From assembly GCA_028281725.1 (NCBI GenBank), contig JANQJJ010000493.1:1-39061 (forward strand): a stretch of 39,061 nucleotides of DNA, in the 5' to 3' direction. Below, piece after piece: positions 35,244 to 38,711 of this stretch. The notes below the pieces were generated by a model, which saw only the letters and a program-made list of their open reading frames with translations, was not told where the DNA came from and ran no database searches. The DNA is from Pirellulaceae bacterium (lineage in GTDB: Bacteria; Planctomycetota; Planctomycetia; Pirellulales; Pirellulaceae). Positions within the stretch are counted from its first letter, which is position 1. Each line of letters starts with the position of its first letter. Made by a program: the position numbers and the translations under genes.

Positions 35244-36797
35244 TCACGCGTCCGCCGCAGGTACCGGCTTTTCAACCGCAGCGATTCGGTTAATGGAATT
35301 GAGCATCGCCAGAATGGTCGCCTCAACGGTATCGGTGGACACCCCAACCCCCTTATAGATTTGGCCGTCATGCTCTATCTCCAGCTGAACGTCGCCTTGC
35401 GCGTCCCTCCCCAGCGTCGCACTACGGACACGATAGTCCTTGCATACCACCTGGTAACCGGTCAACCGCTCTACCGCCCAGAAAGCCGCATCAACGGGTC
35501 CGTCCCCCTGCTCGACTTCGGTCGTGTACTCCTGAGCGTTGTGGACTAGAGTCAAACTGACGTGAGGCTGGCGTCCGGTGCCGCTGGCAACCTCGAACCG
35601 CGCTAACGTCCAAGACTCGTCCACTTGCCCGGAAATCTCTTGCTGAATCAGGGCGGCAATATCTCCGTCATAGATTTCTTTCTTCTTGTCGGCTAGTTCC
35701 TTGAAACGGTCGAATACGTGTTGAAGCTGCTCTGCGGTGATACTGAACCCCAACGCGTGAGCCCGATCGGCCAGTGCTGCTCGGCCACTATGCTTGCCAA
35801 GCACCAGATCGGTTTTCGAAAAACCGACATCCTCCGGCCTCATGATCTCGTAGGTACTCGGTTCTTTAAGCATTCCATCTTGGTGGATCCCCGATTCGTG
35901 AGCGAACGCATTGCGGCCCACCACCGACTTGTTGCGTTGCACGTCCATTCCCGTAATCGTGCTCACCAACCGGCTTGTCGGCACCAATCGCCGGGTATCG
36001 ATGCCGGTTTCGCAGCCGAACAATTCCTGACGAGTTTTCAAGGCCATGACCACCTCTTCCAGGGCGCAGTTGCCGGCTCGCTCCCCGATCCCATTGATCG
36101 TACACTCGACCTGTCCGCACCCGGCTTCGACGGCCGCCAATGTGTTGGCCAGGGCTAAACCGAGGTCGTCGTGACAATGCGTACTGAGCACCGCACGGTC
36201 CATATTGGGCACTCGATCCATCAGCGTACCGATGCAGGCCCGCATCTCACTGGGCGTCGTATAGCCCACGGTGTCCGGGATATTGATCGTGGTCGCCCCT
36301 GCCTTGATCGCAGCCTCGACGACGCGGCACAGAAAATCGCGCTCGGTTCTAGCGGCGTCCTCGGGCGAAAACTCGATGTCATCGCAAACCTTGGCTGCTT
36401 GCTTGACCCCTTGAATCGCTCGCTCGACAATCTCGTCTTGCGACATCCTCAACTTGAATTCGCGGTGAATGGCGCTGGTCGCCAAAAAGACGTGGATTCT
36501 CGGCTGCTCAGCTCCCCTGAGCGCCTCCCAGGCGCGATCGATGTCCTTCGGGTTGCAACGCGCCAGTCCGCAAACGGTAGCCCCTCGCACAACTTCGGCG
36601 ATCTCACGTACCGACTCAAAATCACCGGGCGATGCGATTGGGAACCCCGCTTCGATGACGTCCACCCCCAGGTTGACCAGCGCATGAGCCACTTCCAGCT
36701 TCTCAGCCCGGTTCATACTGGCGCCCGGCGATTGCTCGCCGTCGCGCAGAGTCGTGTCGAAAATTCGGATGCGACGTGTGTCGGTTTCACCACTCAT
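35244..36797 (-). CDS. leuA: 2-isopropylmalate synthase
   Basis: [92 protein letters not shown]-terminal regulatory domain. ATG at 36797 preferred. Confidence 0.96.
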
Positions 36798-36876: not shown

Positions 36877-36911
36877 AAAAAACCCCGAGGCTCATGGTGA
36901 GCTTCGGGGTT
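36877..36911 (-). terminator. Intrinsic terminator / attenuator in the leuA leader
   Basis: Minus strand aaccccgaagctca-cca-tgagcctcggggtt followed by a T6 tract; 14-bp stem with one mismatch, 80 nt before the leuA ATG. Confidence 0.82.
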
Positions 36912-36949
36912 TGAACTAAGTTTTTGTTGGATCTACGTAGACCGAACCC

Positions 36950-37015
36950 CTACCACTCGCTTTTGGCGAGGGCTAGTAGAAGCAGCCCGGTGAGGGTTCT
37001 TTGGTCTCGTGTCAC
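36950..37015 (-). CDS. leuL: leu operon leader peptide, (V/M)TRDQRTLTGLLLLALAKSEW*
   Basis: GTG ACA CGA GAC CAA AGA ACC CTC ACC GGG CTG CTT CTA CTA GCC CTC GCC AAA AGC GAG TGG TAG; SD AAGGA about 8 nt upstream of GTG; 6 Leu codons of 21; located between a promoter-like sequence and the terminator before leuA. Confidence 0.82.
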   Translation of the reverse strand: MTRDQRTLTGLLLLALAKSEW

Positions 37016-37060
37016 GTACAATTTCCTTGGAATCTGCTGATTCGTGGATCTTTTCAGTAC

Positions 37061-37093
37061 CAAGACGTTAGCCCCCGGCGTCTTGCTCGTCAA
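37061..37093 (-). promoter_or_regulatory. Candidate sigma70-type promoter for leuL-leuA, overlapped by a 7-bp inverted repeat
   Basis: Minus strand TTGACG-17 nt-TAACGT; inverted repeat CAAGACG-N11-CGTCTTG at 37061-37085. Confidence 0.5.
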
Positions 37094-37262: not shown

Positions 37263-37991
37263 TCAGGCAGACTCTTGAACGTCAGCAACGGGCTGTGCCC
37301 CCATTTTCAAGTGTTTGGGTCTGGGGCAACGATTTTGCGGCAGATTGAGCTGGTGAACTCCGTCTTGGCGAAAGTCATCTTGCCTGGCGAACACTTGCCT
37401 CAGGCGATCCAGACGATCGATCTTTCGAACTAAATCGGCAACATTGGCGGTCTGAAGTTTGCGGTAGACCTTGGCCCGACGCGACTCGATCGTCCTGATA
37501 CTCACATGAAGTCGCAGTGCGGTCTGCTTATTGGGAACCCCTTTGAGGACATAGTCCAAAACATCCAGCTCACGAGGCGTGAGATCTGAGAACAGGCTTT
37601 TCAGCCTCTGGTACTCTTCTTGATTGGCGATGAGCGCCTTGGCTTCCTCAACCAACTCGACAGCGCTGGCTGCCAACTGTTGGCTATCTAGGGGCTTCTC
37701 CAAGACCGAGCCAACGCCGCTGTGCATAAGACTCACCGCATCGGACACGGCAAGAGACGCTCCAGTCACAATCACCAGTTGATGCGGGCGATTGCGGCAA
37801 ATCTCAGCCGCCTTGGGCACCAATGGGCCTTCGAAAGCCGATTGATCCAAAACCAACAAGTTTGCCCAGTCAGAAAACTCATCTACGTCTTTCCAATACT
37901 CAGATGCACGAAACTGCAGCCCGTGAGCGGTCGCCAAATCCTGCCACAACTTCGCCGCCTCCGCATCTACGTCGAATAACATCAAATTCAC
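37263..37991 (-). CDS. FixJ/LuxR-family response regulator
   Basis: Receiver-like N-domain (NLLVLDQSAFEG, VIVTGASL, SVLEKPLD); HTH LTPRELDVLDYVLKGVPNKQTALRLHVSIRTIESRRAKVYRKL. Confidence 0.87.
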   Translation of the reverse strand: MNLMLFDVDAEAAKLWQDLATAHGLQFRASEYWKDVDEFSDWANLLVLDQSAFEGPLVPKAAEICRNRPHQLVIVTGASLAVSDAVSLMHSGVGSVLEKPLDSQQLAASAVELVEEAKALIANQEEYQRLKSLFSDLTPRELDVLDYVLKGVPNKQTALRLHVSIRTIESRRAKVYRKLQTANVADLVRKIDRLDRLRQVFARQDDFRQDGVHQLNLPQNRCPRPKHLKMGAQPVADVQESA

Positions 37992-38156
37992 TTTTCAGCA
38001 CTTTCGTATAAGACCAGATACCAATGATAGACAATTAAATCGGTGAAAAATCAGGCTGTTCATGGGTAAATGCGACATCAGAACGTACAATCCGCAGGTA
38101 TAAACCGCTCATTTTGTTCTGCCTGCTCCCCCTCAAAGAAGCCATCAGGGAGAATC

Positions 38157-38711
38157 ATGGCCTCCAAGCACGACTCGGCTCCGCTCGACGCCACCGGCGA
38201 TTCCCGCAAATGGATCGAGCACATGTACGATGATCTCCATAAAATGGCGTCGTCCTATATGCGTGATGAACAGAACACTATATCTCTCTCGCCAACCGTG
38301 CTGATTCACGAGCTCTACCTGCGGTTACCCGCGGAACAAAATCAAAGCCTGTCGCGAACCCACTTTTTTGCGTTGGCTGCCACTACCATGAGACGCGCGT
38401 TGGTGGATCAAGCGCGTTTTCGAAAGCGGAAAAAGCGAGGCGGCGAGTATTCAAAAAAACAACTTGGCGATTGGGACGCCATTAGTCCGGGCAATAGTGA
38501 CCACGTCTTGGCTGTCGACGAAGCCCTCACGGAGTTGGCCGAATTGGACGCTCGCCAAGCTAGCATCGTTGAAATGCGTTTCTTCGCCGGCATGACGGTG
38601 GCCGAGGTGGCCGAGCATCTGGGCGTTAGCAAACGCACGGTGGAGTCCGACTGGACGATGGCCAAAGCCTGGTTACGACGATGGTTTGATGTCGAAGGCT
38701 CAGATTCTTGA
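38157..38711 (+). CDS. ECF-subfamily RNA polymerase sigma factor
   Basis: MYDDLHKMASSYMRDEQNTISLSPTVLIHELYLRL...RTHFFALAATTMRRALVDQAR; region 4 ELDARQASIVEMRFFAGMTVAEVAEHLGVSKRTVESDWTMAKAWL. Confidence 0.92.
   Translation: MASKHDSAPLDATGDSRKWIEHMYDDLHKMASSYMRDEQNTISLSPTVLIHELYLRLPAEQNQSLSRTHFFALAATTMRRALVDQARFRKRKKRGGEYSKKQLGDWDAISPGNSDHVLAVDEALTELAELDARQASIVEMRFFAGMTVAEVAEHLGVSKRTVESDWTMAKAWLRRWFDVEGSDS

Follow-up and report, generated by a model that had tools for sequence, protein, structure and literature searches.

Introduction

Amino-acid attenuators are textbook material from Proteobacteria, and in the leuL-leuABCD system of E. coli and Salmonella the antiterminator and the intrinsic terminator are mutually exclusive. 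Replacement of CUA by CUG in the Salmonella leu leader made it less sensitive (Carter et al., 1986, cited in PMC1183508), and the planctomycete leaders described below are likewise skewed to CTA. In Corynebacterium glutamicum, attenuators have been predicted in which four consecutive Leu codons stand before leuA and Phe-Tyr-Phe before aroF; however, this bacterium belongs to another phylum, no relation at the RNA level is shown, and the excerpt of the paper makes no mention of a cimA attenuator (PMC4046766). The ilv-leu leader of Staphylococcus aureus, for which leucine control is experimentally supported, shares a Leu-rich leader peptide, an antiterminator and a terminator with the element reported here, but it controls a whole ilv-leu operon starting with ilvD, with CodY acting in addition (PMC5794164). 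The actinobacterial LEU element also precedes leuA and contains Leu codons, but it has a conserved pseudoknot over the translation start region and lacks classical terminator logic (PMC1262725). According to a 2010 genome survey, such attenuators had been demonstrated in no phyla but Proteobacteria and Actinobacteria until the survey added a case from Firmicutes (PMC2965389). In Planctomycetes, short leader ORFs have been noted and tied to translation reinitiation at a spacing of ~10-13 bp (PMC4833913). We found no earlier description of planctomycete attenuators or leader peptides, and no report of cimA as an attenuator target, in the open-access literature that was searched.

Here, we analyze the region upstream of leuA in a stretch of DNA of 39,061 nt, referred to as the window, from a Pirellulaceae bacterium (GCA_028281725.1, contig JANQJJ010000493.1, positions 1-39,061). 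A preliminary description, made from the letters of the window, had proposed a leucine attenuator there. We find that leuA is very probably controlled by a leucine-specific, ribosome-mediated transcription attenuator.

Results

The leuA leader and its parts

The elements of the locus are listed in Table 1. The Shine-Dalgarno sequence, the GTG-initiated ORF of 21 codons, its TAG stop and the Leu codons CTG CTT CTA CTA plus two CTC are on the minus strand as the preliminary description had given them, and the terminator with its T6 tract indeed begins 38 nt past the leader stop, where arm AACCCCGAAGCTCA starts; 79 nt separate its end from the ATG of leuA. The stem reaches 14 bp when a third A-U pair is counted and contains one A.C mismatch, which is probably why a simple terminator scan of the window missed it. 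The motif AGGGGTT is complementary to the AACCCC of the terminator, as proposed, although it lies at 36951-36945, 3 nt from the position first assigned to it (~36942-36948). While the start codon is GTG in the window, most relatives use ATG.

Table 1. Features of the leuA attenuator, its neighborhood and the related elements before cimA and aroF.
Feature	Coordinates	Strand	Basis
Candidate sigma-70-type promoter, TTGACG-N17-TAACGT	37065..37093	-	Read from sequence; predicted start ~37058
Shine-Dalgarno AAGGA of the leader ORF	37024..37028	-	Sequence; 8 nt 5' of GTG
Leader peptide ORF VTRDQRTLTGLLLLALAKSEW; GTG 37015-37013, 21 sense codons, TAG 36952-36950	36950..37015	-	Sequence; Leu-rich leaders in relatives
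Segment 1 (AACCCTCACC), codons 6-9, directly before the Leu run	36989..36998	-	Pairs with segment 2 in the MFE fold
Control codons CTG CTT CTA CTA (codons 11-14)	36974..36985	-	Nascent-RNA folding; stall-site comparison of 69 leaders
Segment 2 (GCGAGTGGTAGGGGTT): last codons, stop and GGGTT; 5' side of antiterminator	36945..36960	-	2:3 duplex comparison
Segment 3: terminator 5' arm AACCCCGAAGCTCA; alternative partner segment 2	36898..36911	-	Folding; duplex comparison
Segment 4: terminator 3' arm TGAGCCTCGGGGTT (36894-36881) and T6 tract (36882-36877)	36877..36894	-	Sequence; folding; 3:4 comparison
leuA, bacterial-type 2-isopropylmalate synthase; ATG 36797	35244..36797	-	NCBIfam NF002086 and TIGR00973 above cut-off
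LuxR-family regulator, ends 37263, 250 nt upstream of the leader	37263-37991	-	PF00196
ECF sigma factor near leuA	38070-38711		PF07638
Isoleucine(-valine) attenuator before cimA: Ile-rich leader and terminator	L133 / G000:C548:14917-15007; L166-L208		Window's genome and across Pirellulales
Phe/Tyr/Trp-rich leader (e.g., MNNFLRAYYWFFFSPLSRGAGGGT) and terminator before DAHP synthase (aroF)	L249-L253, L255, L257-L259, L262, L266, L289-L318

Rfam gave no match in the window, the leader itself scoring only below threshold at low stringency, and no leader family at the leuA loci of 20 relatives.

Folding and the position of the ribosome

The minus-strand segment 37025-36865 folds at -58.3 kcal/mol (z -4.28 against dinucleotide shuffles), and none of 200 shuffles was as stable. 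In the MFE fold, AACCCTCACC pairs with GGTAGGGGTT, which bears out the 1:2 pause hairpin of the preliminary description. Segment 2 begins inside the ORF, a point absent from the preliminary description: the last leader codons contain GCGAG, a possible pairing partner of GCTC in the terminator arm.

Alternative folds, a proposed check of the attenuator reading, were computed for nascent transcripts and gave the expected logic for a ribosome that is absent, stalled at Leu codons or at the stop. In these folding models, a transcript ending before segment 4 and bearing no ribosome forms 1:2; with the A site on codons 11-13 (CTG CTT CTA), 8-10 pairs of 2:3 are expected; and with the ribosome at the stop neither 1:2 nor 2:3 forms, leaving segment 3 free. 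For the full transcript at equilibrium, the terminator was favored whatever the modeled ribosome position, which requires a kinetic switch. In the 69 leaders compared, ribosome stalls that leave 2:3 pairing possible coincide with the Leu codons (8.2 vs. 5.0 pairs; within-leader permutation z 11.2).

Conservation upstream of leuA

The comparison drew on the leuA upstream regions of 60 relatives and of 80 named records, the latter almost all from Pirellulales, which gave 118 distinct regions. A strict rule demanded a terminator score of at least 20, an ORF 10-35 codons long with its end 20-60 nt upstream of the terminator, and at least 5 Leu codons with a run of three. Terminator and Leu-run leader occurred together by this rule in 67 of 116 leuA regions, compared to 0 of 696 dinucleotide shuffles (6 x 116) and 0 on the reverse strand; the leader and terminator before leuA are not due to chance. 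A blind rule took the single best terminator and picked the ORF by start codon and length, ignoring composition, and the leaders so chosen consisted of 37% Leu and 2.8% Ile. The Leu-rich leaders of relatives have a median of 20 codons. Lacipirellula limnantheis (L125) and Stieleria tagensis (L072) are examples of cultured relatives with the element. Of 69 non-redundant relatives, 41 have a sigma-70-like motif, TTGAC-N16-18-TANNNT, 5' of the leader, compared to a mean of 0.25 and a maximum of 2 in shuffles.

We trained a covariance model on 45 leuA leaders; of 28 regions in which the scan had been unsuccessful, 6 proved to contain the element by this model. Even with this model, the attenuator was not found upstream of leuA in ~20 of the 118 relatives. 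At L058, L059, L060, L063 and ~16 other loci, neither leader nor terminator was found before an orthologous leuA, and the attenuator has apparently been lost there.

Coevolution of the three pairings

At 69 non-redundant loci, RNAduplex energies were computed for the segments paired within a genome and, for comparison, with partners taken from other genomes. Own partners were better for 2:3 (-17.1 vs. -14.1 kcal/mol, z -8.9), for 3:4 (-22.9 vs. -16.0 kcal/mol, z -18.1) and for 1:2 (-21.1 vs. -18.3 kcal/mol, z -7.3), these permutation z-scores being ones from which relatedness among genomes is only partly removed. The control pairings 2:4, 1:4 and spacer:3 showed no within-genome advantage in the same test. 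The own-partner advantage persisted when the set was reduced to 55, 32 and 17 representatives by lowering the leuA identity, and with the 17 divergent representatives that of 2:3 still reached z -5.0. In RNAalifold, 8 of 11 terminator pairs had changes on both sides among 45 sequences. Fixed-register column covariation was uninformative for 2:3, the G and C runs being of variable length, and it was dropped for the alignment-free duplex permutation. Conservation of the Leu run and stems in close relatives, by which the proposal was to be checked, was thus found: leaders with a Leu run, and alternative stems that covary, occur throughout Pirellulales and in other orders of the class.

Anatomy and codon usage of the leaders

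Segment 1 reads GAACC(Y) in most relatives, often within AAC CTN codons directly before the Leu run, and their segment 2 is made up of one to three final codons, the stop and GGG(G)TT(CG). Their segment 3 reads (CGAA)CCC(C)nAGGCC, and their segment 4 GGCCTnGGGG with a T tract behind it. The genus of the window has GCGAGTGnTAGGGGTT as segment 2 and GCTC in segment 3, and therefore the recurring peptide ends SEC, GEC, SEW and GER appear to be side effects of RNA pairing. The peptide sequence is conserved only in its Leu content and in the end forced by RNA pairing. Among leader Leu codons, CTA makes up 23%, compared to 2.7% of those in leuA, and CTT 19%, compared to 8%.

The ORF stop lies beyond segment 2 at L005, L006, L072 and L096; these four, L057 and L061 have an ORF running past segment 2 or weak 2:3 pairing in fixed segment windows. 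We recorded a variant geometry, with the stop codon beyond segment 2, in these six and in L062, where masking would therefore happen with the ribosome still translating.

Related elements before cimA and aroF

The window's genome has another match to the covariance model; it precedes a citramalate synthase gene (TIGR00977) by 86 nt and has leader VTQVYLLSIDFSIIDRLWGGAS and promoter motif TTGACA-N17-TAACGT. Leaders before cimA in relatives, chosen blind to composition, contain 19% Ile and 4.8% Leu, and their 2:3 pairing coevolves (z -5.3). The spacer control for this test was set aside, the spacers being too short (mean 103 kcal/mol). The model also had matches before aroF (DAHP synthase, NF006421), where a leader was present in 26 of 30 regions; again chosen blind to composition, these leaders contain in total 17% Phe, 7% Tyr and 3% Trp. 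In the same genomes, no comparable element preceded ilvB (0 of 20), and trpE had a spurious terminator in 1 of 30 regions, with no leader.

Eight further covariance-model matches in relatives (L254, L256, L260, L261, L263, L264, L265 and L267) resembled ordinary terminators or repeats with no fitting leader and were rejected.

Distribution and apparent replacement of leuA

In the class Planctomycetia outside Pirellulales, the blind rule found a terminator and leader at 13 of 20 leuA loci, 12 of them plainly Leu-rich, and the element was present in 5 of 6 families. The sixth family (four loci) had at most a Leu-rich ORF, and a terminator was not detected in it. Outside Planctomycetia, a Leu-run leader and terminator occurred at 3 of 14 leuA loci.

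Several genomes of the window's genus carry a yeast-type LeuA (NF002991; PRK03739 kind) behind the same leucine attenuator (L231, L233, L237, L240). A bacterial-type leuA was not found in these genomes, some of which are incomplete. From the anatomy, it looks as if bacterial-type leuA was swapped in place for the yeast-type gene with the regulatory region kept. At L212, another locus with a replaced leuA, the upstream gene resembles, by eye, the LuxR-type neighbor in the window.

Discussion

Every testable defining feature of a leader-peptide transcription attenuator is found at leuA. A putative short ORF is rich in codons for the end product; an intrinsic terminator lies between this ORF and the structural gene; the antiterminator excludes the terminator and 1:2 excludes the antiterminator, as the coevolution of 2:3 and 1:2 attests; and, in folding models, a stall at the control codons frees segment 2 and arrival at the stop masks it. 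The earlier suggestion that leucine attenuation operates in this lineage is well supported by sequence and comparison, which establish the parts, their conservation, the coevolution of the three pairings, the codon specificity and bias, and the promoter motif. From these we infer translation of the leader, stalling and leucine-dependent readthrough.

RNA polymerase would start near 37058 and a ribosome would begin the 21-codon leader. With Leu-tRNA short, the ribosome would stall on CTG CTT CTA CTA, covering segment 1, and segment 2 would be free to pair with the emerging segment 3, so that no terminator forms and leuA is transcribed. With Leu-tRNA ample, the ribosome would reach the stop and cover segment 2, allowing 3:4 to form and transcription to end at the T tract. 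An untranslated leader would form 1:2, and 3:4 would again terminate.

Leu runs are membrane-like, and an ORF followed by a terminator is also what would be expected if the leader encoded a small hydrophobic (membrane) peptide with a function of its own, the hairpin being the ordinary terminator of that small gene. However, the peptide is unconserved apart from its Leu content and RNA-forced end, segment 2 coevolves with the terminator arm, uncommon Leu codons are favored, and the leaders of cimA and aroF carry Ile or aromatic residues instead of Leu. Since the leader residues track the downstream pathway, neither chance nor a membrane peptide would explain them, and we regard a peptide gene of this kind as extremely unlikely. 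The hairpin might instead terminate the LuxR-type gene, which lies on the same strand 250 nt upstream, with the Leu-rich ORF arising by chance. The probability of this is close to negligible: that gene is separated from the leader by a conserved promoter motif, the combined feature is found in 67 of 116 regions but in 0 of 696 shuffles, the antiterminator coevolves, and the same element stands with other residues before cimA and aroF.

The leader could also control leuA at some other step: termination might depend on Rho, translation might be coupled, or the leader RNA might be bound by a regulatory protein or a ligand. Mutation of a leuA leader containing Leu codons in Streptomyces coelicolor did not have the effects expected of a classical attenuator (PMC1262725). 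Against such a step, the intrinsic terminator and T tract leave the leuA ribosome site free, 79 nt separating them from the gene, no riboswitch or T-box was matched in Rfam, and the stall-position logic fits control by a ribosome. Such a step is, in our judgment, very unlikely, and ribosome-mediated attenuation remains the preferred reading.

The mechanism is of a known kind; what is new is the lineage, the family of RNA and how deep it reaches in the class Planctomycetia, and the cimA case. Four Leu codons in a row, CTA among them, precede leuA here as in leuL of E. coli and Salmonella (E. coli codons compared). The preliminary description had stressed this likeness, and the LLLL run holds, but the E. 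coli motif that it quoted as TGLLLLNA is actually IGLLLLNA (MTHIVRFIGLLLLNASS). There is no recognizable RNA homology to leuL (no Rfam match), and the planctomycete element differs in forming segment 2 from the last codons, stop and GGGTT and in placing segment 1 directly before the Leu run. The likeness is better read as convergence than as homology. In Planctomycetia, attenuation is probably old and general, with related attenuators before the genes of the committed steps, leuA (Leu), cimA (Ile) and aroF (Phe/Tyr/Trp), and a leucine element kept through replacement of leuA by the yeast-type gene, an example of a regulatory element that stands before a non-orthologous replacement of its gene.

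Apart from hidden leader ORFs to annotate, the leader codons offer a means of assigning enzymes to pathways (cimA to isoleucine, aroF to aromatics). The compartmented cells of Planctomycetota are the subject of an old debate. A set of attenuators through much of a class implies that, in Planctomycetota, transcription and translation are coupled closely enough for attenuation, which bears on that debate and supplies a testable readout of coupling.
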